This document shows, in pieces, positions 36,227-64,000 of a DNA stretch of 64,000 nt. The notes beneath the pieces are model-generated. The model made no database searches. It had not been told where the DNA came from and saw nothing but the letters and a program-made list of their open reading frames with translations. Each line of letters begins with the position of its first letter. The first letter of the stretch is position 1. A program made the position numbers and the translations under genes. The stretch is from Gautieria morchelliformis (Eukaryota > Basidiomycota > Agaricomycetes > Gomphales > Gomphaceae): assembly GCA_015179125.1 (NCBI GenBank), contig WHVA01000537.1:1-64000 (forward strand). Reading direction: 5' to 3'.

Positions 36227-36412
36227 GCAGAAAAGTCTCTCCCCTAGAGGACCAGCGGTCGTACTGCGCATTGCATTCGCCATAGGTGCATTCGGAATCG
36301 GAGACAGCGACTCGGAGATTGCAACCTCTTCCGTGCACACGGTATACGACAGCCCCTCTTCTTACATCGAGCTCCCAACCCCGGAAATCCCGTCCCATAT
36401 TTCCCCTTCTGA

Positions 36413-39448: not shown

Positions 39449-39875
39449 TGTCAGGGGACACCCTGTTTTCCATTTCCAGTTCCGACACCGCACCCAGTTC
39501 CGACTCCATTTCCGACTCCGCTTCGGGTTCCGATTCCATCTCCGCCTCCGCTTTCGGAAATGATTCCACTTCTGGGAGAACTTCCACCAGTTCTGTTCGC
39601 CTTGCCAGTTCCACTCCAATTTCCGACTTCCACTCTCAGAACAGTGTCGGAAATCAAGCGACTCGCGTAATAGGTGGCATCAAGGGTCGATCAAGGGTCA
39701 GGGTGGTCAAGGAGATGCAGGGTTGATGGCGGGTACCAAATGTTGTCCCTGGCTGTGCAGCGTAGTATAATACGGGCTCGCTGACATTGGGGGTCCTTAG
39801 ACTTTTCTCTTTGGATTTCCCCTTGTCAGTTGTGTGGTAGTGTGATCTCCACAACTAGCCAGGGTTGCCCTTACA
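39449..39875 (+). repeat. 5' LTR of element C (short class)
   Basis: 427 bp, starting TGTCAGGGGACACC directly at the end of element B pol and ending TTGCCCTTACA before the gag region. Same short class as 35812-36226. Confidence 0.85.
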
Positions 39876-40062
39876 GCAGAAAAGTCTCTTCCCTAGAGGA
39901 CCGGCGGTCGTACCGCGCGTTGCATTCGCCATCGGTGCGTTCGGAATCGGAGACAGTGGCTCAGAAATCGCAACCTCTTCCGCACACACGGCGTACAACA
40001 GCCCCTCTTCTTACGTCGAGCTCCCAACCTCGGAAATCCCGTCCCATATTTCTCCTTCCAAC

Positions 40063-41238: not shown

Positions 41239-43303
41239 GATGTGTGCCCCTGCTGCGTGTACATAACCGGTTTGCCTGTCTTGAAGTAGAGAATGAAAAG
41301 CCCCCACACCCCTCACCTCGTACAGACCCACCGGATAAAGTCACACAAAAACCAAATCCGACACCCCATCCATCCCGCATCCACCCTTGGGAGAGACGCC
41401 TTCCGAAGCGCTATGTTGTTGCTGCGACCCCTGGCCCCAAGTCACTAGTCATTAAGGTAGAGATCCAGACGACAGATACAGCGGAAGTCAAATCCGGACC
41501 CGCCCTTGTCGATTGCGGGGCCACTGGTCAGTTTATGGACCGGGACTATGTGGAACGGAACTGACTGACCATGCGGAAGTTGCAACGTGCAATCCCGGTG
41601 TTCAATGTGGATGGAAGCCCCAATGAGGCAGGGTCCATCACGGAGATAGTAGACGCAATTCTCTGCTACGACGGACACTCAGAACGCACTTCCTTTGCAG
41701 TCACCAGCCTGGGGAAGCAGGACATCATCCTCAGGTTTACCTGGCTTCAGGAGCACAACCCGGAGATCAATTGGCAGACTCGGAAGGTACTGATGAGTCG
41801 ATGTCCAGCCAAGTGTCACATGTGTAGGTCGGAAGTGCGGAAGGAGCGCCAGGAGCAGCGAAGGACCGAACAGCTCATACAGACATGTCGTTCTGGCCCC
41901 CATCCGCTGCTTGCAGAAGAAGACTCGGAAGCGGAATTTGAACCGGATCCCACTTCCAATTCCAATTCCAATTCCGACTCCGGCGTCATCCGACTCCACC
42001 CGGAAGACACTCTGGCGGAAGGGGAGCGCTTGCTGTACGTAAACCTTCTGCCGGGAGCGGAACACATCCGCGCCACCGGAAATATTTCGCAACGCCTTGC
42101 TGAAGCCTCCAAGAGGCATGATAGAGTAGAGGCGGAAATTCCGGAGTACCTGCGGGAGTTCGAGGACGTCTTTTCCAAGGAGTCGTTTGATGCCCTGCCT
42201 CCACGGAAGCTGTGGGACCATGCCATCGAGTTGGAGCCTGGGTCAAAGCCCACCAACTGCAAAGTCTACCCGCTGTCACCCAAGGAGCAGGTAGAGCTCG
42301 ATGCATTCCTTGCGGAAAACCTCCGTACAGGGAGGATCCGCCCCTCCAAGTCACCCATGGCATCTCCGGTGTTCTTCATCAAGAAGAAGGACGGCTCGCT
42401 CAGACCTGTGCAGGATTACCGGGCCTTGAATGCGATCACAATCAAGAACCGGTACCCCATTCCACTCATTTCCGAACTGATCACACAACTCCGCGGGGCG
42501 AGGTACTTCACTAAGCTGGATGTCCGCTGGGGCTTCAATAATGTTCGGATCCGGGAGGGAGACGAGTGGAAGGCCGCATTCCGCACCAACCGAGGACTCT
42601 TTGAGCCACAGGTCATGTTCTTTGGCCTCACCAACAGTCCTGCCACGTTCCAGACGATGATGAATGACATTTTCCGTGACATGATAGCAGAAGGGGTTGT
42701 CTGCGTCTACCTCGATGACATCCTCATCTTCACAAAAACAATGTCTGAACATCGGGAAGTCGTGCGGAGAGTGCTGGAACGGCTCCGGGAGTACGGCCTG
42801 TGTCTCAAGCCGGAAAAGTGCGAATTTGAGCGGACGCAGATAGAGTATCTCGGGGTGATTGTGTCGGAAGGAAAGGTGGAAATGGACCCAGTCAAAGTTT
42901 CCAGTGTGTCGGATTGGCCCGTGCCACGGAACAAGAAGGAGGTCCAGTCCTTCATTGGGGTTGTCAATTTCTACCGGTGGTTCATCAAGGACTTCTCCGG
43001 CCACGCCCGTGCCCTCTTCAACCTCACCAAGAAGGAGGTTGGATGGTGGTGGGGAGAGCCAGAACAGGCCTCCTTTGAGAAACTCAAGGAGCTGATCACT
43101 TCTGCCCCGGTCCTGATCTTTCCCGACGACTCTCGCCCTTATCGAGTCGAGGCGGATTCTTCCGACACAGCTACCGGGGCGGTCTTGTCACAACAGTCAT
43201 CGGAAGATGGTGGGGGGTGGCATCCGATTGCCTTCTTCTCTAAGAGCCTTAGTCCGGTCGAGTGGAACTATGAGATCCATGACAAGGAGATGCTGGCAAT
43301 CAT
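41235..43303 (+). CDS. pol remnant of element C (PR-RT-RNase H)
   Basis: Protease similarity with ALVDCGATGQFMDRDYV. A Ser/Asn repeat lies at about 41950-41985. RT motifs are KLDVRWGFNNVRI, MFFGLTNSPATFQTMMNDIF and [12 protein letters not shown]; then the thumb and connection IGVVNFYRWFIKDFSGHARA, and the start of RNase H YRVEADSSDTATGAVLSQ. No integrase is seen. Confidence 0.85.
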
Positions 43304-44831
43304 CTGTTTTGGAACCCTTCAAGACTTTGGTGTTATTGCTAACGCCTCTGTCTATCAGAACGTGTCGTTTACACGACTAGTAGAATACCAATTCAATGCA
43401 GCAGCACAACTCCGGAAATAATTTAATATTTGTACCTTGGTTGCAATCTGTGTAATAACTAGTCCAAGTTATTACAGGTAGAAGGCAATGCATTTCTTAG
43501 CTGCACTGAACAATAAACTAAAAGAGTGTGTAGGTTCAAGGACACTATCGGGGTCCAAGAGTATTCCTTTTAATAAAGAGGGAATAGGCTCCGCAGGAGA
43601 GTTTGTAAGTGGATTGGGTCGACCAACGTCAATGCACTGCAATAACGCGAGAGTAATGTGAAGTGGCTTTCGCGCACAACTTGACTTGACTTGTGAAAGT
43701 CACTGAACAGGAAAATCAACTGAACAGCTTGTCTCGGGTATTGGAGTGCTAATTGACAAGAAAATCGATTGCCAACCTCACTCTGTAGAGTTTCACCCAG
43801 CGTGTTAGGCTAAGTGGCTAAGCAGTAAAGCAACTACTTAACTAAGAATAGTTACTCTAAGCAAGAGTAGTATTCTAGTTCGGGTTAGGAACTTAGATAA
43901 GATGTGCAAGTCACACAAGCTGTGTAGGATAGAAGATGGGTAGATTGATTGCTCAAAGGGCAGGCAAAGGGCCTCCTTTTATATTGTAATGTACAGGAGC
44001 TTAGTAAGCAGGTAGAACCTTCTATCTATTAATGGAATGGGGGAAGAAGCTTGTGGAAGATGGAAGAAAGGGTTGGAAGAAACTGGCTGTTTCCAGGGGA
44101 CTCTACCATGCTTCCTACCAATCAGAGCTTGATTTGTCAGGAATGACTCACTGAAAAGGGTCATGTGCCATAGCACAGCTTGGCTGAGTCATGTACTCCT
44201 GACTCACCAAGTTGTGCCTGGATTGGTTGAGTCATTGAGGCTGTATCTCCAGATAACCATGTATTTGGCACTCAGAAGCTGAGTAAGCAGTTCTGAGCCA
44301 ATTAGGGCTCTGTAGCCATGATTACTAAGAGCACTGCTTAGCACAGCTGGGCATAGCCTGGTACAGCCCAGTTGTCATGACTGACCATGATCCCCATTGT
44401 TTGGTGAAGCCAAACAGGCTGCACAGTTGCTATGGCTGCATATAGCAACTGTTTGGGACTCAGCTGGAAATACTGAGTGAGCCATCCTGCCGGACTTGTG
44501 GGTGCTTGGGTGACCATAAGTCCGAAAATGCGGCCACCGCCGAGGTGCCCGGCGGAGTTTGAAATAGAGCGCCGAGAACAGAGTTGTGGGTGCTAGAGGA
44601 TCCACAACTCTGTAATGACAGAAAAATGGTAGTTTGAGCCATGGAGACTTTGGAAAAATAAGGAAAAATATGAGTTAACTAGAGGAATGTTTGAAAAGCC
44701 TTTCCCCAGTTATATTAACAGCATACAGATACTGTTAATTCCTCAAATGTGTTTTTACATGTTGTCAAGACAAAAAGAAAAGACTAGGGCTGGTTGAGCA
44801 GCCTTCCTTGGCTGGTTGAACAGCTGTTCCC
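43304..44831. other. Unclassified 1.5-kb sequence between elements C and F
   Basis: Begins tgttttggaacccttc, right where element C stops. It has a TATA-like ttttatattg near 43976 and many ctgagtcat/gactcac words between 44140 and 44260. No protein similarity is recognised on either strand. It may be a long LTR or a non-autonomous element; no terminal duplication was found. Confidence 0.4.
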
Positions 44832-45940: not shown

Positions 45941-46551
45941 CAACCACGAAGTCTCGAGCTCGTGCCGAGGCGAGGTCGCGTTCGGGGTGAACCATGAGGT
46001 TCGGGTGGTAACCCTTGTTAGCAAAGAACGGGGATATACCAGTGGTTGCGCTAGGCGCATTGTTGTAAGCGAACTCGGCTAGGGGAAGGAGCGAAGCCCA
46101 GTTGGACTGCTGATAGTTGCAGTAAATCCTGAGGTACTGTTCCAAGGTCTGGTTAGCACACTCGGTCTGACCATCACCCTTGGGATGATATCCCGAGGTG
46201 AAATGCAACCGCATGTCCAAGGCTTTCCCTAGAGAACACCAGAAGTGCGAGATGAACTCGGAACCCCTGTCCGAGGTGATGTGTGAGGGACTCCATGCTT
46301 GGAAAAGACATGGAGGAGGAAGAGGTGGCGAGCTCTTGCGATGTTATCTTGTCTGTGGTTGGAATGAAGATAGCCTGCTTAGTGAAGCGGTCAACAATCA
46401 CTAATATGGAGGTGAACTCGGATGAAGGTGGGAGCTGCTCAATGAAATCCATAGAGATTGAATTCCAAGGCTTCTCGGGAACGGGGAGTTGTTTCAGGAG
46501 ACCATAGGGCTTGTGACGTTGCGGCTTGCTTCGCATACAAGTGGTGCACAT
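45941..46551 (-). pseudogene. Integrase remnant of element E
   Basis: Reads MCTTCMRSKPQRHKPYGLL (end of the zinc domain), then NSISMDFIEQLPPSSEFTSI and ILVIVDRFTKQAIFIPT (first catalytic Asp region). Further on, FTSGYHPKGDGQTECANQTL carries the catalytic Glu region. Incomplete. Confidence 0.75.
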
Positions 46552-46680
46552 CTTGCAATACTCCTTGACAAAGGATCTAATCCCTGGCCAAGTGTAGTCT
46601 CGTCAGATCAGCTCCAAGGTCTTGTTGACCCCAAAGTGTCCCGAGAGAATATGATCGTGCTTGTATTGCAGGATGCGAAG

Positions 46681-48146
46681 TCAAAGGTCTTGGGCCGCTG
46701 GAACATAGGTTCGGTTGTCAAGCTTGAGAAAACCCTCGGGGTCTGTGGTCCACCTCGGGTCATTAACCAAGCCGAGGTGCGACTTGGCTATGGGGTCCGA
46801 GGGGAGGTTCGCTAGTATGTCAGCTCGGATCTGCTCGGTATCAAGCAGCGAAGCGGCTCGGAGTACGACGGGAGCGAGGTTAGTAGCTCTAAGGGACAAT
46901 GCCAGCTGGTGTTGAGTAAACACTGGCCGTAGGTTCTGTGGGTTTATGGTGGCATAGTCGCTATTCCCCTCTTTAAGGTAGACATCCCATCGTCTAGTGA
47001 GAGAGTCAGGCTTCGTTCCGAGGCAACCAGGTTGGAAATGAATGGCGAGGTTGAATTGGGAGAGGTATTCTGACCACTGAGCTTGTCGACGGGTTAAGAG
47101 CTTCGTTGTTGAAAAGTATTCGAGGTTCTTATGATCGGTGATAACGTTGACAGGGTCGCCAGAACCCTCGAGGTAGTGTCGCCAGCATTGAAAAGCTTCA
47201 AAGATCGCTAGGAGCTCCTTGTCGTGAACATCATAGTTGAGCTCGGTAGAGGTGAATGTGCGGGAGTGAAAAGCGACGGGATGAAGTTCGCCTTCCGAGG
47301 TTCGCAATGATAAGATTGCCGCTAAAGCGTAATCTGAAGCATCAGTCTCTACGATTAGTGGAAGATCAGGAATCCAGTGGGTAAGGATAGGAGCAGTAGT
47401 GAACGCCTTTTTCAACAGGTTGAAGGCTTGTCGACAATCCTCGGAAAATTTCCAAGGGGTACCCTTGCGGGTAAGTCGGGTGAGAGGAATGGTGATGTCG
47501 GAGTAGTTGTGAATGAAACGTCGGTAGAACTTGGCGAAACCGAGGAAAGATTGGATGTCACAACTTTGCGAGGTTCAGGCCAGTCTTGAATGACCTTTAC
47601 CTTGTCGTCCGCCATAGTGAGGCCCTCGGGAGAGAGTATGTAGCCGAGGAATTCAACCGAGTCGCGATGAAACTCGCATTTGTCTTCTTTGGCGAAGAGG
47701 TTGTTGAGTCGCAGTCGTCGCAAGACTTCCTTGACATGTTCAACATGTTTGGAGGGGTCACTGGAGTAGATTAGAATGTCATCCAAGTATACCACCACAC
47801 AAACGTCCAAAAGGTCGGCGAAAATCTCGTTCATGAATCTCTGGAAAGCAGCAGGGCCGTTAGTGAGACCAAATGGCATAACCAACCATTCGAACGACCA
47901 ATAGCGAGTCCTGAAGGCGGTTTTCCATTCGTCACCCTCGGCCACCCTTACGAGGTGGTAAGCGTGACGGGGGTCAATCTTCGTATAGATGCGAGCATTC
48001 TTTGGAGCATCAAGTAAGTCAGCAATCAATGGTAATGGGTACCGATCTTTTTTGAGATCTTGTTTAAACCTCGGAAGTCGACACACAACTGAAGTGAGCC
48101 ATCTTTTTTGTGGACAAACAATACCGGTGCACCATGAGGCAAGCAC
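46681..48146 (-). pseudogene. RT and RNase H remnant of element E
   Basis: The RT has [35 protein letters not shown] and [12 protein letters not shown]. The RNase H has LIVETDASDYALAAILS, VAFHSRTFTSTELNYDVHD and VITDHKNLEYFSTTK. The linker to integrase follows. Broken in a few places. Confidence 0.8.
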
Positions 48147-49090: not shown

Positions 49091-50074
49091 TCACCTCCAT
49101 GATGGAGGCCGAAGTCCCCTCGTTGGGGTCTTCGCTGCCCGACCTTTAGAACTGCTACCGCTGGTAGACTTGTTCTTCGGGCAGTCCTTGACGATGTGGC
49201 CTTTGGTGCCGCAAAGTAGACAAAGGCCTTGGTCGACCCGACGTTGGCGTTCCTCGGGAAGTAGTTTGCCATCCTTCCCGAGCTTGCTCGATATGTTGGG
49301 CTGACTCTTGTTGTTCGAAGAGTTGTTGTTGGAACCCTTGCCGTTGTTGTTAGTCTTGTTGCGGTTCTTATTGTTGTTGGAACCGCTGGAAGACTGATTG
49401 TTGTTAGTGGCATTGCTGCTGGACTGATTAGTGGCGCATGCAGGCTGGGAGCTACGACCATTGATCATGGCGTCATATTCCTTACGCTCCCAGTAACAGC
49501 TGTCGCATTCCAGCGCGAAGTTCCTAAGTTCAGCGAGGCTGCGGAATCGAGGGAAGTGAAGTAAGTCGTCCTTGATTCCTTTGGCCAAGCCCTTGTAGGC
49601 GAAGTGTCGGAGGGCCACGTCGTTCCACTGAGTCCGAGTCGAAGCTCGGGCGAAGTCGATAAAGAATCGCACGGCCTTGTGGTGCTCTTTCATAATGATC
49701 TTCTCGAGGTCAATCTCAGCTTGGGCAGCGTTGTCATATGGGCCGAAGTTGAGCTCGAGCTCGGCCTTGAAGCTGTCCCAGTCTTCGAGCCAATCTGGCT
49801 CGGGTTGGACTTCACTGAGGATCGCCGGCTCGAAATACTGTAGAGCTGAGCCGGACAGGTAAGAAATAGCATACTGCACCTTCGAGGCCCCAGTCTTGAA
49901 CGCTGTGGGGCGATCTCGGAAGTTGAGTACGCATTGAAGGAAGAAGGTGCGAAGCTTGGCCTGGTCAGTACCGTCATAACTATCCGGTTCCTTGACCTTG
50001 GCTCGTGCTTCGGACTGCGAGGTTTGCGAGTTTGATGAACACTCGACGCATAAGCTCGTTGTCCTCGAGGTCAC
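49091..50074 (-). CDS. gag of element E
   Basis: Capsid-type gag of about 327 residues: EPDSYDGTDQAKLRTFF, FRDRPTAFKTGASKVQYAIS, LEDWDSFKAELELNFGPYD. An Asn/Ser/Lys-rich low-complexity stretch (about residues 212-262) precedes the knuckle CLLCGTKGHIVKDCP. Typical of fungal chromovirus-group gypsy elements. Fossil. Confidence 0.8.
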   Translation of the reverse strand: MTSRTTSLCVECSSNSQTSQSEARAKVKEPDSYDGTDQAKLRTFFLQCVLNFRDRPTAFKTGASKVQYAISYLSGSALQYFEPAILSEVQPEPDWLEDWDSFKAELELNFGPYDNAAQAEIDLEKIIMKEHHKAVRFFIDFARASTRTQWNDVALRHFAYKGLAKGIKDDLLHFPRFRSLAELRNFALECDSCYWERKEYDAMINGRSSQPACATNQSSSNATNNNQSSSGSNNNKNRNKTNNNGKGSNNNSSNNKSQPNISSKLGKDGKLLPEERQRRVDQGLCLLCGTKGHIVKDCPKNKSTSGSSSKGRAAKTPTRGLRPPSWR

Positions 50075-50349: not shown

Positions 50350-50897
50350 TGTTATGATACGATCCGTCGTAAGGTTGACCGAGGTCGGGAACGAAACCCG
50401 AGGTACGGTCCGAGGTTACGGGGCGAGGTTTGGATGGGGAAGTCGGAGAGGGACTAGGCTTCAGCTTATGTGCTGCGCGACCCTATGCACGAGTCCCAAC
50501 TTCAGAGGCAAACGAATAAGAGGCGAGGTTTGGCTTAAGAGGCGAGGCTTAGAAACTAGCTAGGGATCGAAGTTATACAATAGTTGATTTTCAGACTGAG
50601 GAGTAGGAATGCATACAGGGGGGTTTATATACGGGCGAGGGTACGAGTCAGGGGCGAACATATTAGTGGAGATCAGGGCGAGGTCAGGGCAAGGTAATAT
50701 GTGAATGATGCGTGATGGAGCGGAATCAGTAACTAAGGGGATACGGGCATGGGATCAGGGTCGGATATGAGCTCTAGCTCTAGCTCGGGCTTGGGCGCAG
50801 GATAAGAATCATATGTACTTGGGCACGAGTATCACAAGGCTCGGGCTCGGAAGAAAGTTATACCGGTAAGTAACCGGCCAAAGGCGGGGTTCTTACA
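50350..50897 (-). repeat. 5' LTR of element E
   Basis: 548 bp; plus-strand ends tgttatgatacg and ggttcttaca. A TATA-like tttatata lies near 50623. It forms the left arm of a large inverted repeat with 50898-51384. Confidence 0.75.
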
Positions 50898-51384
50898 CTT
50901 ACCGGTAGAACCTTTCTTCCAAGCCCGAGCCCGAGCCTGAGCTAGAGCTCATATCCGACCTTGATCCCATGCCCGTATCCCCTTAGTTACTGATTCCGCT
51001 CCATCACGCACCATTTGTATATTACCTCGCCCTGACCTCGCCCCCCTGACCTCGCCCTGACCTCCCCCTAATATGCTCGCCCCTGACTCATACCCTCGCT
51101 CGTATATAAACCTCCTTGTATGCATTCCTACTGCTCAGTCTGAAAATCAACTATCGTATACTTTGATCCCTAGTTAGTTTCTAAGCCTCGCCTCTTAAGC
51201 CAAACCTCGCCTCTTATTCGTTTGCCTCCGAAGTTGGGACTCGTGCGTAGGGTCGGCACAGCACATAAGCTGAAGCCTAGTCCCTCTCCGACTTCCCCAT
51301 CAGAACCTCACCCCGTAACCTCGGACCTTACCTCGGGTTTCACCCCCGAGCTCGGTCAACCTTACGAAGGATCGTATCGTAACA
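50898..51384 (+). repeat. LTR of family E, opposite orientation
   Basis: 487 bp, an inverted match to 50350-50897, from about cttaccggtagaacc to atcgtatcgtaaca. It has its own TATA-like gtatataaacc near 51103. The two LTRs are head to head with almost no spacer. Confidence 0.75.
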
Positions 51385-52139: not shown

Positions 52140-53000
52140 GAACTGGCTTACTTTACTTCGAAGATTGGAATGGGAATAACAGGTTATGCATTCCCAGGAG
52201 TGAGCAAGCAAGGCTTCTTAGTGAAATCCACGACGAAATCACTGAAGGAGCTCACGCCGGATATCACAGGACTTACAACAAATTATCCTCCACTTATTAC
52301 TGGCCCAGAATGAGTAGGGATGTCAAGAGATTTGTAGTAAGCTGTGACATTTGCCAAAAGGCCAAACTGTGAAGGCATGCACCAATTGGTCTGCTGCAGC
52401 CTCTCTACCTATTCCAGAAAAACCATTCGAAGTTGTCACTATGGATTTCATCACCGAACTTCCAGAAAGCAGTGGCTACGACTCCATCCTAGTCATTGTA
52501 GACAAACTCACGAAATATGCCACCTTCATCCCCACTCACAGCTCTGTGAATGAAGAAACTACTGCCAAGTTATTCTTTGAGCACATAGTGTCAAAATATG
52601 GAATACCTAGGCAGATAGTCTCTGACAGAGACTCCAGATGGACAGGGACGTTCTGGAAGGAAGTATGCAGATTAATGAACATGCGACGAGCACTACAACC
52701 GCATACCTCAAGCTGATGGCCAGACTGAGATTATGAATCAAGTACTGGAAACAGCCCTCCGTTCATATATTAATCCACTTCGGAATGACTGGTTTACTCT
52801 ACTACACCCTTTCAGTCTGTCATACAATACTACTCCCCACTCAGCTACCACATTCTCTCCCTCTTTCCTCCTCTTCGGATTTGCCCCTACTACCGTTGGT
52901 ACGCTCCTGCATCCAGAATCCGATCACGTGGCTAGGCCAATGGCTGCAGATCGTGCCTACCCTCGAAATCACATGCACTGGAGGCATAGTAAGGTTTTTT
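52140..53000 (+). pseudogene. Second Ty3/gypsy integrase fragment
   Basis: Zinc domain HAGYHRTYNKLSSTYYWP then CDICQKAK. Core MDFITELPESSGYDSILVIV, then YGIPRQIVSDRDSRWTG, and a QTEIMNQVLETALR/DWFTLLHPFSLSYN stretch. A separate, different integrase from the one just upstream. Broken. Confidence 0.75.
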
Positions 53001-53019
53001 GGTCCAAAAAACTGTGAAA

Positions 53020-53560
53020 AACTTTGAAGATTTTCCAAATTTTTTGAGTGGTTTTTATATAAAAAAAACTTTAAAAAAATCTTGAGTTGTTTTAAGAATT
53101 TCTCAATCCCAAAAAAGTGTGATAAAACTGTAAAAAAAAAGTTCAAAAAGCTTTAAAAAAACACAAAAAAATTCAAAGTTTCTTGAGACTTTTATGAATC
53201 AAGAAACTCTCTGAAAAATTTTGATTTTTTTCAAGATTTTTTGGGATAAAAAATCTTGAAAATATTGTAATAAAAATAGCCAAAAACTTTGGAAAAATTT
53301 AAAGTTTTTATTAGTTTTTTTTTTGGTATGAAAATCCTTGAGAAACTGAGGTTTTCCAAAGGTAAAATTTCTAATGAAATTGACGGTTTTGTTAGAATTT
53401 TTTGAGCAAGAAAATCGGGAAAATATTGTAAAAATAAATGTCAGAAAATTGTAAAGAAATTCAAAGTTTTTTTAAAGGTTTTTTAAGGGTTTTTTAAGGG
53501 TTTTTTAAGGGTTTCTTTGTGAAAAAGATCCTTGAAAAATATCAAGCTTTGGTTATTAGG
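53020..53560. repeat. AT-rich homopolymer-run block
   Basis: About 540 bp built mostly of runs of 4-9 A or T joined by short ctt/gaa pieces. It includes a triple repeat of agggtttttta (53478-53518). No gene. It separates retroelement remains from the repeat-rich right end. Confidence 0.7.
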
Positions 53561-53609
53561 GGGTTTCTTGGCTCAGCTAATTAGCACCTTGCAAGGCTAC
53601 CCAGACTCC

Positions 53610-54110
53610 CCCCAAGTGGCTGGGACCGCTATATCTGCCCTTTCGCTATGTGATGACTAAGCTCTACGAGGCGTGTCTGGCACTGATGGCACGTGACCGC
53701 GTTGATGGAGAAATGGTCTCGATCTAGAGGACAGCTGTCTCAAAACGCTTCGCTTTTTGAGATAGTTTAGAGTAGACAATAATAGTAGACTTCCAACGAA
53801 GAATTGGAGAAAACTATTGACATTTAAGTTCTGTAGCTATTAAACAAGACTACCAGTGTTCAGGATAATGGGTAAATGGGTCGAAAAACTATGTGTAACT
53901 AAAGGGGTGACTATTTCTAGGCATAAAGCCATGAAAAAGATGGGGGTAATGACAGGGGTGTTAGGCTTTGGAATAGAGTCTTGTACCTACTATACAAAGC
54001 TCCTGTCTACATGGTGTCAAGATAGTAATCAGCTGGTCGTGTCATGGAGCTCAATAGAAAATAGAAATTAAGTTTCTCTTGCGTAGCATATTTTGGATTA
54101 AGATGTTAAT
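53610..54110 (+). repeat. Non-coding direct repeat, copy 1
   Basis: Matches 54145-54720 in order: tgactaagctctacgaggcg, gagatagtttagagtagaca, aactattga, and ggtcgaaaaactatgtgtaac. CACGTG is present at 53690-53695. The distal half also matches 63350-63600 on the other strand. Confidence 0.7.
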
Positions 54111-54144
54111 TAGTGCCTTTCAATGAATAAAATCTATTGCTCAG

Positions 54145-54720
54145 TGACTGGAACCACTGTGTTCGCCCCTCTTCTGTGTGCTGACTAAGCTTTTCGAGGC
54201 GCGTCCAGCACTGATGAATGAGAGTCACGTGACCGTGTCGACAGAAGAACGGTGTCGATCCAAGGGATAACCAAGTCAAAGGCGTTCGCTTTTGAGATAG
54301 TATAGAGTAAACAGTGATAGTAGACCCTCGACGAAGATTTGGAATAAACTATCAAGATCTAAGCTCTGTAGCTATCAAACAAGACTACAGTAATTTCAGG
54401 AGGCAGAATAATCGATTCTGGATGATTTCGTTCATACATTTGTACTAGCTATTTATACTATGTTGATAGTAACTACTAGTGTTCAAGATATTAGACAGAT
54501 GGGTCGAAGAGCTGTTTGTAGCTAAGGGGTGACTATTTTATAGTCATAAAGTCATGGGGTGATGGGGATGGTGTCAGGATTGTCTGGGCATTGGAATAGA
54601 AATCTGTACCTAGTATACAAAGCCCCTGTCCATATGATGTTAAGATAGTAATCAGTCAGATGTGTCATGGGGTTCAAATAAAAAATGGAGCTGAGTTTAC
54701 CCTGCCCAGCATATATGCTG
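54145..54720 (+). repeat. Non-coding direct repeat, copy 2
   Basis: Second, slightly longer copy, with TCACGTGA at 54225-54232. Together with copy 1 it is a diverged tandem duplication of about 500 bp. Confidence 0.7.
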
Positions 54721-54724
54721 GGCT

Positions 54725-55010
54725 TGGAGATGGGGCTGCTGTCTCTGTGCCCTTTCTGTGGGGCAGCTAATTGAGTATGTGTACTGCGGATGACATTCTC
54801 AGGTCACTCCACAGCACCCTATATTCCTGCGCAGTCTATTGTCCTCTGCGGAGTTTGGTGCCCGCACCCCTCGGTGCCTATGGCCTGGCGCCTGTCGATG
54901 TCATGGCTGATGCCATCACTCGATAGGCATGCCATCCCTGATCGACCGCACGTGGTCGATGCCCGAACTCCTGTACATTACCCGATCTATGGGTAATATA
55001 TCATGTCGTA
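54725..55010 (+). repeat. Array-flanking repeat, left copy
   Basis: ggggcagctaattgagta, ttggtgcccgcacc and cacgtggtcgatgcccg match 63060-63330 in reverse complement. A partial further copy is at 55165-55330, where ggggcagctgattgaaca and ttggtgcctgcacctcctcgg recur. Confidence 0.75.
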
Positions 55011-55164
55011 AATTCATGTGATCGTTGTCTGCGCCGACGTCTATCATAAATGTCATTTCTGTTTCTTTTTGATATTTTTCTTTTTTTCTTTCTTTATTAG
55101 TTTCTTTTTATATGTAAATGATTTGAAATGGGATAGTTGCGTTTATCACAACAGCGTAAATGCT

Positions 55165-55330
55165 ACTCCTGGTGATTGGGCCACTGTCTCTGTATGGGGC
55201 AGCTGATTGAACATATGTGCTTGGAATGGTGTTCTCTCGTCATTCCGCAACGTCCAATGCTCCTGTGCAGTCTGTACTCCTCTGTGGCGTTTGGTGCCTG
55301 CACCTCCTCGGTGCTTTGCACCACCCAGTA
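55165..55330 (+). repeat. Array-flanking repeat, partial left copy
   Basis: Partial repeat of 54745-54890 directly adjoining the first minisatellite array. Confidence 0.65.
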
Positions 55331-57461
55331 CAATACCATGGATGCTACCCTGTATGTTAACCAGTACACTACCCTGTGCCCTACCCTGTATGCTATCCTG
55401 TAAGCAACCCTGTACGCAACTCTGTAAGTGACCCTGTGGGCTACCTGATATACACTACCATGCTACCCCATACGCTACCCTGTACGCTACCATGTGCGCT
55501 ACCCCATACACTACCCCATGAGCTACCCTGTACGCTACCCTATAATGTACCCTGTGGGCTACCTCATGCACTACCCTGTATGCCACCCTGTATGCTATCA
55601 TGTGTGCTACCAGACACTACCCTGTAGGTTACCAGGTACACTACCCTGTGGGCTACATTGTATGCTACCCCATACGCTACCCCATATGCTACCCTGTATA
55701 CTACCCAGGACACAACCCCATATGCTACCCCATACGCTACCCTGTATGCTACCCTGTATGCTACCCTATGCCCTACCCCATACACTACCCTGTGTGCCAC
55801 CCTGTGCACTACCCTTTACGCTACCCCCTATGCGGTACGCTATCCTGTGAGCTACCCAGTACACTACCCGGTACACTACCCCATATGCTACCCTGTACAC
55901 TACCCTTTACGCTACCCCCTATGTGGTACGCTATCCTGTGACCTACCCAGTACACTACCCTATATGCTACCCCGTACGCTACCCTGTACGCTACCCTCTA
56001 TGCTACCCTATGCACTGTGCTGTACACTACCATGTGCACTACCCCATACACCACCCTGTGTCCCACCCTGTGCACTACCCTTTATGCTACCCCCTATGCG
56101 GTACACTATCCTGTGAGCTACCCTGTACGCTACCCTATAATGTACCCTGTGGGCTACCCCATACACTACCATGCTACCCCATACGCTACCCTGTATGCTA
56201 CCATGTGCGCTACCCCATACACTACCCTGTCAGCTACACGGTACGCTACCCTATGAGCTACCCTGTATGCTACCCTATAATGTACCCTGTGGGCTACCTC
56301 ATGCACTACCCTGTATGCCACCCTGTATGCTATCATGTGTGCTACCAGACACTACCCTGTAGGTTACCAGGTACACTACCCTGTGGGCTACATTGTATGC
56401 TACCCCATACGCTACCCCATACGCTACCCTGTATACTACCCAGGACACGACCCCATATGCTACCCCATACGCTACCCTGTATGCTACCCTGTATGCTACC
56501 CTATGCCCTACCCTGTACACTACCATGTGCACTACCCTTTACGCGACCCCCTATGCGGTATACTATCCTGTGAGCTACCCAGTACAAGACCCTATATGCT
56601 ACCCCATACGCTACCCTGTATGCTACCCTGTACACTACCCTATGCACTACCCTGTACACTACCATGTGCACTACCCCATACACCACCCCGTGTGCCACCC
56701 TGTGCACTACCCTTTACGCTACCCCCTATGCGGTATGATATCCTGTGAGCTGCCCTGTATGCTAGCCCACAATGTACCCGGTGGGCTACCCCATACACTA
56801 CCATGCTGCCCCATACACTACCCTGTCGGCTATGTGGTACACTACCCTATAATGTACCCTGTGGGCTACCTCATGCACTACCCTGTATGCCACCCTGTAT
56901 GCTATCATGTGTGCTACCAGACACTACCGTGTAGGTTACCAGGTACACTACCCTGTGGGCTACCTTGTATGCTACCCCATACGCTACCCCAGATGCTACC
57001 CTGTACACTACCCAGGACACTACCCCATATGCTACCCTGTATGCTACCCTGTATGCTATCCTATGCCCTACCCTGTACACTACCATGTGCACTACCCCAT
57101 ACACTACCCTGTGTGGCACCCTGTGCACTACCCTTTACGCTACTCCCTATGCGGTACGCTATCCTGTGAGCTACCCAGTACACTACCCTATATGCTACCC
57201 CGTACGCTACCCTGTACACTACCCTCTATGCTACCCTATGCACTACGCTGTACACTACCATGTGCACTACCCCATACACCACCCTGTGTCCCACCCTGTG
57301 CACTACCCTTTATGCTACCCCCTATGCGGTACACTATCCTGTGAGCTACCCTGTACGCTACCCTATAATGTACCCTGTGGGCTACCCCATACCCTACCAT
57401 GCTACCCCATACGCTACCCTGTATGCTACCATGTGCACTACCCCATACACTACCCTGTCAG
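55325..57461 (+). repeat. 12-bp minisatellite array 1, with higher-order units
   Basis: More than 170 copies of a 12-bp unit with consensus near ctaccctgtacg and variants such as ctaccccatacg and ctaccatgtgca. Variant order is itself repeated: the marker accatgct(a/g)cc recurs at about 55457, 56168, 56800 and 57396, giving higher-order units of about 600-710 bp. Because 12 is a multiple of 3 and the unit has no stop, long Tyr-Pro-rich open frames appear in several frames; I do not call them genes. Confidence 0.92.
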
Positions 57462-58199
57462 GCCCTCCGCATTTTCGTTCCTTCCATGAACCTCCGCGAA
57501 CCTCACGACATCCTGGACTTCGCTCTCCGACACCTTCGCACCCACTTCCATGTCCGCCGTCTCTTGCATCCACCTCAACTCCATAACCACCTGGTCGAGG
57601 TGTTCATTGTATGCACAAAGCCTTTCCGAGACTGTGCTGTAAAATTGGTGCTGCATTCGCAGCCCTTGCTCCCCTTGTCGGAGCAATCCCCGGAGCGACC
57701 TTGCAATGTCCACGAGTGGATCCAATGTCGACCCCTCTCCAATCGTCCCACTTTTGCTCGCCTCCGGCCCCCCTTGGGCCCCTTTCGCCTTGGCAGCCCT
57801 ATACAAGGGCTTCCGCCCTCCTTGGGCAGGCATTTCCAAGTCCGCTTCCGATGTCCCGGTCTTCCGCCGCTTGCCCTTCACCCGAGCCTTGAGCCCATTG
57901 ACAATGCACGCACGTTTCCCGTCCTTGCACTGGTTGCAAGCCGTGGCCTTTCCGGCCAAGTCCCAGATGCAGGGCAGTTCCTTCTCCAAGCAGCCATCGC
58001 AGCCAAGCTGCGATGGGCCCTTGTCTTCTGCAACTCCCCTCTTGACTCCCGCACGGTGCGCCCCTTTCTGGCGTTGCTTCTCATCCTGTGCCACCCACCA
58101 TTCTGCCGTCGCTTTCCCCTTGCCTTTGTTCTTTGGCTTTGGGGTCTCCTTCGGCGTGCCCTCCGACGGAGACTCAATCCACATGCAAATTTCCTCCAC
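57462..58199 (-). CDS. ORF with Zn2Cys6-like cluster, element W
   Basis: Begins MEEICMWIESPSEGTPKETP, a Lys/Pro-rich segment. Next comes CDGCLEKELPC, ten residues, and CNQCKDGKRAC (Cys at residues 67, 70, 77, 88, 91, 98). That is the spacing of the fungal binuclear Zn2Cys6 cluster (C-x2-C-x6-C-x5-12-C-x2-C-x6-C). A basic stretch, KARVKGKRRKTG, follows, then a helical C-terminal part (LVDIARSLRGLLRQGEQGL, LDQVVMELRWMQETADMEV). The last few codons run into the array edge. Zn2Cys6 clusters normally bind DNA in transcription factors; in an LTR fragment it may serve as a nucleic-acid-binding gag part. The element context is inferred from the neighbouring LTR. Confidence 0.6.
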
Positions 58200-58239
58200 G
58201 TCAGCAAGTTTTTTCTGTTCTGTAGATCAGCCTACTCTG

Positions 58240-58617
58240 TCAAGATGCGGAAAGACTTACCTTTGACGTGGCGCGACTTTTCTCAGCCGCAGCTGCCTTT
58301 TCCGCAGCGGCTTGCTCTTCCGCATGTTTTTCCGCCGCTTCTTCGGCCTCCCGTTCTTCGCGCTTGCACTCGATACGCTCGAGTTCGCGCTTGTGGTCCT
58401 CGCGCTCACGTTCCAAATGCTCGCGCTCCTCCTGGTCCTTGTGCGCTTTGTCTTTGTGCTCCTGCTCCTTGCGCTCCTCCTCTAGCCGCTCCTTCTCCCT
58501 TTTTGTGGCCTCCTCGGCCTCGCACTTCTCCACCGATTTCTTCTCCACGAGAATGTTGGCAAAGTGCTCTTTCATTTGAGCGCTGGTCATTTTCGAGAAG
58601 TCGGGTAGGGAGCTCAT
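58240..58617 (-). CDS. Charged coiled-coil ORF of element W
   Basis: 125 codons: MSSLPDFSKMTSAQMKEHF then a heptad-rich KREKERLEEERKEQEHKDK, continuing to an Ala/Glu-rich end. It parallels 5181-5450 both in sequence and in distance from the LTR. A GT..AG intron-like interval (about 58209-58260) lies between this ORF and the next, so the two could be spliced in the family. Confidence 0.6.
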   Translation of the reverse strand: MSSLPDFSKMTSAQMKEHFANILVEKKSVEKCEAEEATKREKERLEEERKEQEHKDKAHKDQEEREHLEREREDHKRELERIECKREEREAEEAAEKHAEEQAAAEKAAAAEKSRATSKVSLSAS

Positions 58618-58737
58618 GATGGATCAGGATTAGACATGTTTGTTCTCCCGCCTTTCTTTTGAACTCCGACACGTTTGTTCACAGGTCACGTGATCCATCC
58701 TGTGGTCTCGCAGGGCTCGACCTTGAAAGGGAGATAC

Positions 58738-58963
58738 TGTTACAACTGTTCCGCTCAACCATCTCCGCCACCTCCACATATCTTCCACGTCACCTCCACG
58801 CTACCTCCGACTCTATTCCGCAACATCCGCACCATCCGCAACCCTCTACCTCGACCCCTTGTTCTTTCAGTACCCCTGGCCACCTCCAGATACCAGCCCC
58901 CGTACTCAACCCTGAACACAGTAAGATACTATTTCCATAATTCCATTTGTTCTGATGCCCATT
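58738..58963 (-). repeat. Partial LTR of element W
   Basis: tgttacaactgttccgctca and the following 220 bp match the corresponding end of the solo LTR at 59834-60529 and, less closely, 5571-6262. TCACGTGA lies at 58686-58693 in the adjoining leader, just as at 5519-5526 beside LTR Z. Confidence 0.7.
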
Positions 58964-59115
58964 CATGGATGTCTAGATGTGGCTGAAGGCCCTCGCGCCC
59001 TGAGTCAAAGGGATCATGTCACCCTTCAGGTAGAGACTCCTCAACCTATTTGGCTTGAGTGACCAGTGGTTGAGCTTCGTTGATGCTAGGGAGTGTCTGA
59101 CGCTGCAGACCCCAC
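58964..59115. other. Unique spacer before array 2
   Basis: About 150 bp without recognised similarity between the LTR fragment and the array. No gene seen. Confidence 0.4.
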
Positions 59116-59833
59116 GTGGTAGCATTCTGGCTAGCATACAGGGTAGTGCACAGGGTAGTGCACAGGGTAGTGCACAGGGTAGTGCACAGGGTAGTGTACG
59201 GGGTAGTGCACATGGTAGTGTACAGGGTAACATAGGGGTAGCATATGGGGTAGCATACAGGGTAGCCCACAGCGTAGTGTACCGGGTAGCTCACAGGGTA
59301 GCGTACCGTGTAGCACATAGGGTAGTATATGGGGTAATGCACATGGTAGTGTAGGGGGTAGTGCACAGGGTAGTGTGCAGGGTAGCACACAGGGTAACAC
59401 ACATGGTAGTATATGGGGTAGCATATAGGGTAGTGTACAGGGTAGCATAGCATAGGGGGTAGGGTACAGGGTAGGGCACAGGGTGGCACACAGGGTAGTG
59501 TATGGGGTAGTGCACAGGGTGGCACACAGGGTAGTGTATGGGGTAGTGCACATGGTAGTGTACAAGGTAGCATACAGGGTAATGCACAGGGTAGCAAACA
59601 TGGTAGCATATGGGGTAGTGTACAGGGTAGTGTACTTGGTAGTGTATGGGGTAGCCTATGGGGTAGTGCACAGGGTAGTGCACAGGGTAGTGTACAGGGT
59701 AGTGTATGGGGTAGTGCACATCGTAGTGTATGGGGGAGTGCACAGGATAGCATACAGGGTTGTGTATGAAGTAGCCCACAGGGTACATCATAGGGTAGCA
59801 TACAGGGTAGCTCACAGGGTAGCATACCACACA
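59116..59833 (-). repeat. 12-bp minisatellite array 2 (reverse orientation)
   Basis: Same 12-bp unit as array 1 but on the opposite strand (plus strand reads cagggtagtgta, catggtagtgta and variants). It ends in agcataccacaca, where a solo LTR is inserted. Confidence 0.9.
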
Positions 59834-60529
59834 TGTTACGTATCAGAAATCCCGGAGATTGGAACTAGAAAGGACAACAGCTTCAACCTATGTGTTGTGC
59901 CCATAATGAACTATCGTCCTAAGTATTTTGGATTTGACTTCCAGATGTCGGAGAAGGCGGAAGTTGGGAAAGGAGAGCTGAGGGTTGGAGGTCAGAGGAC
60001 AGAGGTAGGAAGAGGCAGAGGACAGAGGATTGAAGGCAGAGAGAGAGAGAGAGCTTGCAAGACTCGCTGTGCTAAGAGCAGGAGATAGTGCAGAGGGATT
60101 CACATATTGAAGTTGATTGTCTGATTGCAGAAATGGAGACATACATGTGGGGGTTTTATACAAAGAGCTGAAGGAACAAGTAATAGTATAGTACTAAGCA
60201 AATTCCTGAGGGAGCGGGAATCGGATAGACATACGGGGTAAGTAACTAATGCGGAACAAGGGGATGACAAGGGGGTGTAGGGTAGAGTAAGAACAATGGC
60301 AAAAGAACAAAGGTGCGTAAGTACAATGGGCATCGGAACAAACAGAAATACAGAAATGGTATCTTGCTGTGTTCAGGGTCGAGTACGGAGGCCAGTGGGT
60401 AGAGTCGACTAGGGGTACTGAAGAACAAGGGGTCGAGGTTGTGGGTTGCGGAGGTTGTGGAATAGAGTTGGAGGTACTGCGGAGGTGTTCCAGAGGTGGC
60501 GGAGATGGTTGAGTGGAATGATCATAACA
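59834..60529 (+). repeat. Solo LTR of family Z inside the minisatellite
   Basis: 696 bp from tgttacgtatc to atcataaca, flanked by a perfect 5-bp duplication acaca at 59829-59833 and 60530-60534, with minisatellite on both sides. A TATA-like tttataca lies near 60157 on the plus strand. Confidence 0.92.
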
Positions 60530-62167
60530 ACACAGGGTAGTGTACTTGGTAGCCTACCAGGTAGTGGGGTAGTGCACAGGGTAGTACACATGGTAGCATA
60601 TGGGGTAGGACACAGGGTAGTGTACAGGGTAGCATATGGGGTAGTGTACAGTGTGCAGGGTAGTGTATGGGGTAGCATACAAGGTAGCCCACAGGGTAGT
60701 GTACCGGGTAGTCTCTGGTAGCACACATGATAGCATATAAGGTGGTAGCATACAGGGTAGTGCATGAGGTAGCCCACAGGGTACATTATAGGGTAACATA
60801 TAGGGTAGCTCACAGGGTAGTGTACCGCGTAGGCCACAGGGTATATTATAGGGTAGTGTACAGGCTAGCTCACAGGGTAGCATACAGGGTAGTGCACAGG
60901 GTAGCACACATGGTAGTGTGTGGGATAGCATACAGGGTAGTGTATGGGGTAGGATATGGGGTAGTGTCCAGGGTAGTGCACATGGTAGTGTACAGGGTAG
61001 TGTACAGGGTAGTGTACAGGGTAGTGTACAGGGTAGTGTACAGGGTAGCATATGGGGTAGTATACTGGGTAGTGTACTGGGTAGTGTACAGGGTAGTGTA
61101 TGGGGTAGTGTATGGGGTAGTGTATGGGGTAGCCTACAAGGTAGCCCACAGGGTAATGTCTGGTAGCACACATGATAGCATACAGGGTGGCATACAGGGT
61201 AGTGCATGAGGTAGCCCACAGGGTACATTATAGGGTAGTGTACAGGGTAGCTCATGGGGTAGCGTACCATATAGCTGACAGGGTAGTGTATGGGGTAGCG
61301 CACATGGTAGCGTACAGGGTAGCGTATGGGGTAGCATGGTAGTGTATGGGGTAGCCCACAGGGTACATTATAGGGTAGCGTACAGGGCAGCTCACAGGAT
61401 AGCATACCACGTAGGGGGTAGCGTAAAGGGTAGTGCACAGGGTGGCACACAGGGTAGTGTATGGGGTAGTGCACATGGTAGTGTACAGGGTAGGGCATAG
61501 GGTAGCATACAGGGTAGCATACAGGGTAGCGTATGGGGTAGCATATGGGGTAGTGTACTGGGTAGTGTACAGGGTAGTGTATGGGGTAGTGTATGGGGTA
61601 GCATACAAGGCAGCCCACAGGGTAGGATACCTGGTAACCTACAGGGTAGTGTCTGGTAGCACACATGATAGCATACAGGGTGGCATACAGGGTAGTGCAT
61701 GAGGTAGCCCACAGAGTACATTATAGGGTAGCGTACAGGGTAGCTCACAGGGTAGCGTACCGCATAGGGGATAGCATAAAGGGTAGTGCACAGGGTGGCA
61801 CACAGGGTAGTGTATGGGGTAGTGCACATGGTAGTGTACAGGGTAGTGCATAGGGTAGAGTACAGAGTAGCATACAGGGTAGCATATGGGGTAGCATATG
61901 GGGTAGTGTACTGGGTAGTGTACAGGGTAGCATATGGGGTAGCATACAAGGTATCCCACAGGGTAGTGTCTGGTAGCACACATGATAGCATACAGGGTGG
62001 CATACAGGGTAGTGCATGAGGTAGCCCACAGGGTACATTATAGGGTAGCGTACAGGGTGGCTCACGGGGTAGTGTACCACGTAGCCGACAGGGTAGTGTA
62101 TGGGGTAGCGCACATGGTAGCGTACAGGGTAGCGTATGGGGTAGCATGGTAGTGTATGGGGTAGCCT
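60530..62167 (-). repeat. 12-bp minisatellite array 3 (reverse orientation)
   Basis: Continuation of array 2 after the solo LTR. The higher-order marker ggtagcatggtagtgta recurs at about 61328 and 62138, and tgtctggtagcacacatgatag at about 60710, 61157, 61650 and 61967. These are the reverse complements of the markers in array 1. Confidence 0.92.
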
Positions 62168-63059
62168 GTTCTGATAGACACAATTATTCTATTCCAAGTC
62201 ATCTATGCACAAAGAAGCTAATAACAGAAAAGAAAGAAAAACGACTAAAAAGGAATAGGAATGACACTTACGATGGACGTTGACACAGACGACAGATACA
62301 CGACATCACGAATAGCTATCTTATCTACAGATTAGACAAGATACAGGGATGTTATGATATTCAAATAACGACATTAATGACATCACCCAGATCTGAATCT
62401 AAAATATACTGACGTCACCGAACCACACGATCCCCAAAATCCATGCCCGCGTCCATACACAGATACACAGAAATATCCCCGAATCCCCTGACTCGCATAC
62501 ATGCGACGCCGGACCAATACATTTCCACGCACGTGCACAGGGCACGCCAAGCTGATGTCATCATATTACATATGCTGATCCCATCAATCTCAACCGAGGG
62601 ACCGACCCGAGACACAGATCCCCGCTTAGGCACCAACTCAGTCGCGATCAAGACACGATACACATTCGATCGTCCCTGAGCAGCCTCGACCGCAGCTCCA
62701 CAATTTCTCTTATATATCACACACATGTCCCTCCACACCACCGCCTTATGCACTACAAACTCTTAGTATCACCTTGTACTATTCACTTGAGAGCTCGTCC
62801 CAGACTCCACTCCACATCCCCCTATATCTTTGAGTTACGAATTGTACATATCGTATCGACGCCGAGTCTTTTCTAGTAGTCAAATAGTACCAACAAATGT
62901 AACTACCAGGTAAGAAGAATAACAGTAGTTTCACCTCCCCACCATCTCGAGATTCCCGACTGAAACCGTTCCCGTAGCATATGCAGCTCTCTCAACATTC
63001 AGACCTCTATTCGATTCAGTTTCTCCCGAAGCTTGAATCAAATCTCTATACGAAAATTA
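62168..63059. other. Sequence right of the arrays, no gene recognised
   Basis: About 890 bp. The small open frames (62415-62753 on minus, 62443-62679 on plus) have no recognisable domain and overlap each other. It contains gacgtcac-type words near 62411. Confidence 0.45.
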
Positions 63060-63330
63060 AACGCATTCAGAGAAACTCTTATCAAGGGATACGGGCATCG
63101 ACCACGTGTGGCCGATCAGAGACAGTGCGCCTATCGACTGATGGCATCGGCCATGACGTCGCCAGGCGCCAGGCCACAGGCACCGAGGAGGTGCGGGCAC
63201 CAAACGCCGCAGAGGAACGCAGACTGCTCAGGAGCACCGGATATTGTGGAGTGACTTCAGAATGTCATCCATAATACGTGTATTCAATTAGCTGCCCCAC
63301 AGAAGAGGCACAGAGACAGCGGCCCCATCA
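63060..63330 (-). repeat. Array-flanking repeat, right copy (inverted)
   Basis: The reverse complement matches 54745-54990, including ttggtgcccgcacctcctcgg and cacgtggtcgatgcccg. It continues on the minus strand into sequence shared with 53850-54110 and 54480-54720. Confidence 0.75.
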
Positions 63331-63584
63331 CCAAGCCTAGCATTTATGCTAGGCAGGACAGATTTAATTTCTATTCTCTATTGGACTCCATGACATGACC
63401 AGCTGATTATTATCTTGACACCATGTGGACAGGGGCTTTGTATACTAGGTACAAGACTCTATTCCAAAGTTTAAACAACCCTGACACTATCCCCATCACT
63501 CCCATGATTTTATGACTATAATTAGTCACCCTTCTAGTTACAAGTAGTTTTTCGACCCATCGACTCACTATCTCGAACACCAGT

Positions 63585-63985
63585 AGTTGTTGGGTGCATT
63601 TATGCTCCTGCACCAAAATCAAGCATAATATATCCAATTTGTTGTGTGGCCTTCCAATTTCTTCTCACATTGTTCTTGTATTATGCATCCATTTCTCTGG
63701 TTATTTTCGAAATTTTCCACTCATTCCTTATCTCTCTATTTCATCTTGTTATTCCTACTTTCACAAGCGGCTGCACCCAGCGGAGTCTGAAATGACTTCG
63801 ACGCGCGAGCTCTTGGGCGCTAAAGGGCCGGGTAGTAGTACATGCGCAGTGGAACACATTTCCCCCTCTCTCAGTGACCACTAAATTCACTGAGAGAGGC
63901 AAGTAAATTAGTCTAGTAGTCTTTGCATTTATTGACCTAGAAATCCTCTGTAGTGAATTGATTTCTAGGTAGTGTATAATATATT
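63585..63985 (-). repeat. Hairpin-bearing dispersed repeat, copy 3
   Basis: The reverse complement matches copy 1 over both stem-loops: one with exact 13-bp arms at 63865-63877 and 63887-63899, and an outer one with cctagaaatc/gatttctagg arms at about 63938-63971. It ends with the shared ggtgcaggagcataaatgcac. On this side it runs straight into the array-flanking repeat, suggesting one composite element of about 0.9 kb. Confidence 0.7.
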
Positions 63986-64000
63986 TACAGTGACCACTAA

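Follow-up and report, generated by a model that had tools for sequence, protein, structure and literature searches.

An inverted 12-bp minisatellite in Gautieria morchelliformis as a probable degenerate fold-back DNA transposon

In a 64,000-nucleotide stretch of the genome of Gautieria morchelliformis (assembly GCA_015179125.1, contig WHVA01000537.1, positions 1 to 64,000; called the window below and lying on contig C601 of an assembly of 1113 unplaced contigs), arrays of a 12-bp unit stand in opposite orientation around long terminal repeat (LTR) sequence. Comparison with related copies suggests that this block represents a non-autonomous DNA transposon of the fold-back type, now degenerate, whose arms contain the 12-bp repeats (probability about 0.85). 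A fold-back element was one option raised in the preliminary description of the window, and it was supported by an end shared among copies, target site duplications (TSDs), an empty site and palindromic copies on contigs C173 and C378. Copies of the family begin with a constant end, CACTGGAGGCATAGTAAGG; A+T-rich and LTR-like sequence fills the next 1.3 kb or so up to the array, and in C173 and C378 the same parts follow in reverse on the other side, so that the two arrays are directed inwards.

A 12-bp minisatellite reading CTACCC on the plus strand was placed at 55323-57458 by Tandem Repeats Finder (edge 57461 by eye), together with minus-strand arrays at 59137-59766 and 60567-62145, and the latter two, reading GGGTAG, were widened to 59118-59830 and 60531-62167 by self-BLAST and reading of the sequence. 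The opposite orientation and the total length of about 4.5 kb described beforehand were borne out by these methods. The 12-mer core occurred 85, 40 and 80 times in arrays 1, 2 and 3 (40-55 per kb, both strands) and once in window positions 1-50000. Higher-order repeats, also claimed earlier, could be recognized in array 1 from a 46-bp marker at 55548, 56283 and 56855, with spacings of 735 and 572 bp. The "LTR fragment" reported between the arrays is really made up of several LTR-type insertions.

The family end CACTGGAGGCATAGTAAGG was located at window position 52976. When window 52900-53560 was used as query (query base 77 being 52976), 68 rows were listed, one of them the window itself; 47 of the 67 non-self rows started at query base 69-79 and the others further in, and none began before base 69, that is, more than 8 bases outside 52976. 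Allowing up to 2 mismatches, the 25-bp end CACTGGAGGCATAGTAAGGTTTTTT matched 74 genomic sites, against 0 for the reversed control, all genome-wide site counts given here being lower bounds. Nothing was shared among the window, C896 and C173 in the 200 bases outside the end (local alignment scores 9-13). The junction between LTR-like sequence and array, TCGGTGCTTTGCACCACCCAGTACAATACC, was found at 27 genomic sites (up to 3 mismatches), and comparison with 31 end positions placed an end on the same side in 21 of them, at 1277-1346 bp in 19. The two farther distances were 2332 bp in the window and 2671 bp in C1025; the excess in the window is due to the nested LTR of about 1.06 kb in its left arm, and the C173 counterpart of this arm is uninterrupted by it. 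A genome-wide look for the array, a check named beforehand, found it on many contigs as part of a transposon whose end is fixed, so that its presence need not be explained by a subtelomeric or centromeric satellite.

Ten copies with two ends (575-8769 bp) were picked because both ends were listed, not at random. Identical 3-bp flanks occurred in nine of them (C173 AGA, C289 GTT, C922 TAC, C148 TTA, C290 CCA, C237 TAT, C142 TTA, C546 AAA and C559 GGG), while C574 had no 3-bp target duplication. An empty site was recognized for C289: its flanks, joined with a single GTT, matched all 40 places scored (40 of 419 candidates) over all 161 bases at 98%. The TSDs and the empty site show insertion of the cut-and-paste type for the family. 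Among the seven short copies (575-1036 bp), five were palindromes from end to end with halves 84-93% alike. Array units were absent (0) from all 11 array-free loci counted (L057-L064, L066, L067, L070), and short copies lacking the array have transposed, so the array is not needed for movement. The repeat into which the C289 copy (L057) is inserted has at least 40 copies that are nearly identical (98%), and by eye it was taken for Helitron-like coding sequence.

The fold-back form could be followed in two relatives, C173 and C378, in which long terminal inverted repeats form the bulk of the element and tandem repeats lie inside the inverted arms. C173:87373-96141 is a complete palindrome of 8769 bp, with its inner arrays joined head to head in the middle; positions 87500-96000 and their own reverse complement were 98.1% alike over 8534 columns. 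Such nearly identical arms would imply recent formation or ongoing arm-to-arm repair. In C378 the left half comprises the LTR-like arm, a plus-strand array, an intervening stretch of other sequence (about 3.5 kb), another plus-strand array and part of the central LTR, and the right half continues with a minus-strand array, a solo LTR, another minus-strand array, the reversed LTR-like arm and the reversed end. This is the order of the window plus an extra inner stretch. The outer arms of C378 are 90% alike over 1388 bases, and its left outer end was not found. In C896 an LTR-type insertion of about 305 bp, with ACGTGG on both flanks, marks the point where the array switches strand, which places the orientation flip at a small palindrome, CTACCACGTGGTAG.

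These copies also bear on the possibility that the palindromic layout is an assembly artefact of collapsed or chimeric repeats. Assembly is evidently hard here: contig C38 (L002, L003) ends inside a 12-bp array, so that arrays may interrupt the assembly and be more numerous than counted, and the window junction at 57461 was found nowhere else in the genome at up to 3 mismatches; this join is unproved by reads. An echo of the assembler is unlikely for C173, whose arms differ by 2% and whose flanks differ yet share the duplication AGA. The two-armed order recurs on C378, C226 repeats the centre and right side of the window, and C896 runs from the left end to the array, so that mis-assembly is unlikely in general and an artefact is held to be highly improbable.

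The preliminary description had both arms carrying the same markers in mirrored order, one probably being an inverted duplicate of the other. Alignment scores were compared with block-shuffled controls (blocks of 120, 240 and 480 bases, 100 shuffles each; z values are given in this order). Array 1 against the reverse complement of arrays 3 and 2 gave z of 4.8, 2.4 and 2.1, its score being matched by 0, 1 and 0 shuffles per 100, so a modest mirrored order did stand out from the shuffles. This order was not unique to the window arms: array 1 gave 5.0, 2.7 and 1.7 with the C896 arm, 3.7, 2.6 and 0.9 with C173, and 2.4, 0.5 and -0.4 with C208 (L053), and array 3 gave 7.7, 3.7 and 1.6 with the matching arm of C226. 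The longest near-identical stretch between arrays 1 and 3 was 269 bases, with such stretches scattered over many diagonals; the values were 256, 229 and 226 bases for array 1 with C208, C896 and C173, and 350 bases for array 3 with C226. The resemblance between the window arms is thus about that seen between arms from separate copies, towards the top of the range. The mirrored order is therefore no proof of a recent inverted duplication in the window; duplicated inverted arms were seen in the relatives (C173 at 98%, outer arms of C378 at 90%), but the window arms are about 67-79% alike. A minisatellite duplicated locally in inverted form around an LTR, without transposition and perhaps as a recombination hotspot, would account for a mirror-order alignment clearer than that of array 1 with the C173 or C208 arms. 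This scenario was rated the least probable of all the explanations considered, since the same arrangement exists on C378 and C173, the block begins on its left at a transposon end found throughout the genome, and the C896 arm matches array 1 about as well as the opposite arm does.

Arrays 2 and 3 are a single array split by a 696-bp solo LTR, which is bounded by TG and CA and flanked on both sides by the 5-bp duplication TGTGT in the window and in C896. The join of this LTR with the array was found at eight genomic sites with up to 3 mismatches (C38, C279, C378, C383, C851, C896, C226 and the window contig C601), so the LTR must have entered an ancestral array, after which the combination was copied. 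In an exact scan for the two motifs of the TGTGT-flanked LTR, both were not found together in L050 and L052. As a whole, the window copy reads as a ruined element scarred by at least four LTR insertions. For the LTR nested in the left arm, TAGCG (TAGCA/CAGCG) was noted as a possible target duplication from reading of the sequence, and the LTR-like part outside it is 73-76% like this LTR. On the right, the boundary between array and LTR at 62167-62168 is identical in C226, and neither a reversed array junction nor a right end was found on the window contig. The LTR that adjoins the array there is in turn divided by the 735-bp solo LTR and, from 63588 onwards, by the copia-like element. In the array-bearing copies a short K/E-rich open reading frame (ORF) was seen after an LTR (L049 2590-2838; window 57462-58619, minus strand, by eye), possibly a gag-like gene of a non-autonomous LTR family.

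With so many LTRs about, the arrays might instead be part of an LTR retrotransposon, in or beside its LTR, and have been spread by reverse transcription. LTR-like sequence does lie directly outside the array, and in C896 and C279 a half-arm adjoins gypsy-type sequence. This explanation is nevertheless very improbable: 29 loci of one related LTR family (L010-L038, 3.5 kb each, 101 kb) contained 0 array units, the LTRs next to the array differ in orientation between C240 and C226, and the unit of dispersal has 3-bp TSDs and begins at CACTGG, 1.3 kb beyond the array.

A candidate source of transposase was found in two relatives with the same end. C546, with two ends and the TSD AAA, gave a DDE_Tnp_4 (PF13359) match of 45.1 bits (1.1e-11) when X was put at one in-frame stop, and its first 132 bases are 82% like the window end and 92-94% like C290. 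C139 gave 53.1 bits (3.6e-14) in one open stretch and 82.8 bits read through six stops. Both matches come from relatives of the array-bearing copies. The DDE_Tnp_4 profile was searched in the contigs of the genome, with a match in 1 of 14 control genomes, and within any one 6-kb element a match would seldom arise by chance. DDE_Tnp_4 in two same-ended relatives and the 3-bp TSDs fit PIF/Harbinger, and the family was probably moved by a transposase of this type. The target usually quoted for PIF/Harbinger is TWA, from which the targets here mostly differ, and the Myb-like partner is weakly supported.

The CACTG ends and the 3-bp TSDs would also suit a CACTA (EnSpm/Plavaka) transposon with subterminal 12-bp repeats binding its transposase. 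In CACTA/EnSpm elements, subterminal 12-bp repeats do bind the transposase, and many Plavaka transposases were present in the genome (135 matches to PF18759; 123 of 277 candidates scored). Among the matches listed, no Plavaka lay within 50 kb of a listed terminus, the nearest by eye being about 51 kb away (C322), so no Plavaka transposase of PF18759 was found between the ends, other CACTA transposase families being outside this search. Two copies with these ends hold DDE_Tnp_4 instead, and short array-free copies have transposed, so a CACTA origin seems quite improbable. The CACTG end, the 3-bp duplications and the 12-bp repeats inside the ends are features in common with CACTA/EnSpm; unlike there, the arrays lie 1.3 kb inside the ends and are absent from the mobile short copies, and no listed Plavaka match is near the ends.

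Several findings weigh against a fold-back transposon moved by such a transposase. The window copy has one recognisable end, the left, so its own target duplication is not visible, and C173 alone bears the array among the ten two-ended copies. Six of the 27 junctions (C378 left, C224, C493, C604, C793 and C239) had no nearby end, and the full listing of 25-bp end sites, compared by eye, added none for them; in the stretches taken for the arrays of C226, C240 and C279 (112 kb) no end was found either. The short copies C237 and C142 are palindromic only in parts. Half an arm in C896 and C279 runs into gypsy-type sequence by a junction common to both, and part of the array may have been spread by segmental duplication or retrotransposon capture. 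At L054 6651-7728 and L052 822-1832, where half an arm runs straight into it, the gypsy-type sequence is 69% and 67% like window 45948-47023, a stretch that overlaps an RT_RNaseH ORF, and because the junction is the same in both loci, the composite may have been copied as a block. As for the transposase, the two pieces of DDE_Tnp_4 in C546 score 20.1 and 13.5 bits when taken singly, the cut-off being 24.8, and only one end of C139 was observed. With at least 152 matches, DDE_Tnp_4 is common in the genome, and C546 was not among the matches listed. Myb_DNA-bind_4 in C546 was weak (E 0.026, under the cut-off), a second protein of Myb type gave no match in C139 at E 0.01, and TTA made up two of the nine target duplications and TAA none.

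The fold-back transposon would have come about as follows. The DDE_Tnp_4 transposase of related full elements with the same ends would cut and paste copies in trans, the inverted arms would have arisen by palindrome formation, and the array would be a passenger enlarged by slippage or unequal exchange. LTR elements would later have interrupted the window copy in its left arm, its centre and its right array, and replaced or masked its right end.

The repeat units themselves looked as if much of their variation were decay of CG to TG or CA. Many units fitted CTACC[AC]YRT[AG]YR. The units counted numbered 113, 94 and 45 in arrays 1, 3 and 2, and those used because they had YR at positions 7-8 and at positions 11-12 were 90 and 91 in array 1, 84 and 69 in array 3, and 41 and 38 in array 2. 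At positions 11-12, CG, TG, CA and TA were counted 24, 31, 34 and 2 times in array 1, 10, 21, 36 and 2 times in array 3, and 0, 13, 23 and 2 times in array 2, where independent bases would give TA 13.1, 12.7 and 9.9 times. At positions 7-8, TG and CA dominate, CG was left in 2, 1 and 2 units of arrays 1, 3 and 2, and TA occurred 13, 9 and 3 times against 26.6, 23.5 and 8.8 expected. TA was below expectation at both steps in all nine sets examined, although the expected values ignore the copying of units from each other and the figures are descriptive, which counts among the points against the interpretation. In the inner arrays CG was kept at positions 7-8 in 8 of 13 units (C173) and 14 of 22 units (C378). 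The observed/expected CpG ratio was 0.17-0.37 for the arrays; window 1-50000 gave 0.79, but the A+T-rich end was low as well, at 0.26. From the CG decay pattern the arrays have probably been methylated and silenced. A further reading, regarded as unlikely, would be a PIF/Harbinger-type transposon that independently evolved the fold-back form with functional, kilobase-long arms of a 12-bp minisatellite containing CG, which might bind the transposase or a Myb-like partner, or be the source of a methylated hairpin marking the family for silencing, with that history recorded in the CG decay.

Table 1. Features of the putative fold-back element copy and of the insertions in it (window coordinates).
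Feature	Position	Strand	Remarks
Outer terminal inverted repeat, A+T-rich	52976..53560	+	Starts CACTGGAGGCATAGTAAGGTTTTTT; sharp start of homology, 25-mer copies, TSDs of relatives
LTR-like inner part of left arm, before nested LTR	53561..54088	+	89-97% to C173, C896, C378
Nested solo LTR, about 1.06 kb	54089..55146	+	Family with many copies, about 95-97% alike; boundaries approximate
Rest of LTR-like inner part	55147..55322	+	Ends at array junction TCGGTGCTTTGCACCACCCAGTACAATACC
Array 1, left arm	55323..57461	+	12-bp minisatellite, CTACCC; Tandem Repeats Finder and self-BLAST
Part of inserted LTR-type element	57462..58737	-	91% to C226 over 57806-58748
LTR of central insertion, at array flip point	58738..59110		Relative of about 305 bp in C896 flanked by ACGTGG
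Array 2, inner part of right arm	59111..59833	-	GGGTAG on plus strand
Solo LTR, 696 bp, inside right-arm array	59834..60529	-	TSD TGTGT (ACACA on plus strand); TG...CA bounds
Array 3, outer part of right arm	60530..62167	-	GGGTAG on plus strand
LTR adjoining array where outer right arm expected, interrupted	62168..63587	-	88-92% to C226
Solo LTR, 735 bp, within LTR 62168..63587	62350..63084		TSD AGGGA
Start of Ty1/copia-like element, running past the window	63588..64000	+	Cuts right flank; RVT_2 match 3.9e-59 in L065

The rest of the window, positions 1-50000, is a dense nest of retrotransposons, with a copia-like ORF at 9711-13190 and gypsy-like ORFs at 895-1914, 36216-37586, 41571-43418, 46684-47415 and 49094-50074. 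Positions 36160-39450 and 39809-43141 are alike, and each is about 93% like the same part of C240. A self-palindrome of 1.03 kb at 50350-51384, with halves 84% alike, starts with TGTTATGATACG and ends with CGTATCGTAACA; it resembles either a pair of LTR-type halves joined head to head or a further fold-back element of small size. In addition, the ORF at 26773-27654 has a match to the Nuf2 family (38.2 bits over 40 residues) and is likely an exon of a host kinetochore gene in a region dense in transposable elements.

An inverted minisatellite could thus be tied to a vehicle whose end is defined and for which target duplications, an empty site and a candidate source of transposase are known, showing how a mobile element can spread such sequences. 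The related copies, with their shared solo LTR and CG decay, offer material for studying the spread of inverted minisatellites, their silencing and the assembly breaks that they cause. Fold-back elements with tandem repeats in their arms are already known, and no title found in the open-licence literature described this family, which is no proof of novelty.

In the account of PMC9179366, PIF/Harbinger elements have a DDE transposase, 3-bp target duplications and inverted repeats of 25-50 bp. The present family resembles that account in the DDE_Tnp_4 of same-ended relatives, the 3-bp duplications and the small palindromic derivatives, and differs from it in inverted repeats far longer than 25-50 bp (PMC9179366). 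Tetris of Drosophila virilis is presented as a non-autonomous element with units of about 220 bp and duplications of 8-10 bp, for which Mutator was suggested and whose authors report that no transposase source was found; the ends of Tetris and DAIBAM are described there as shared with short MITE-like relatives (PMC4079207). Galileo is assigned to the P superfamily and has long arms with several binding sites for the THAP domain of its transposase (PMC3688188). Long inverted arms with tandem repeats are common to the present family, Tetris and Galileo as those reports describe them (PMC4079207, PMC3688188), and non-autonomous copies with ends common to short relatives are a further likeness to Tetris (PMC4079207). 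Unlike Tetris as described, the family has 12-bp units, 3-bp duplications and DDE_Tnp_4 as partner (PMC4079207). Unlike the Galileo of that report, it has a fungal host and a DDE_Tnp_4 partner transposase rather than one of the P superfamily; its parts are analogous, but its array is absent from the short mobile copies (PMC3688188). The fold-back form with repeat-bearing arms, set out for insects in these papers (PMC4079207, PMC3688188), would thereby reach the genome of a fungus, and probably a further superfamily of transposases as well.

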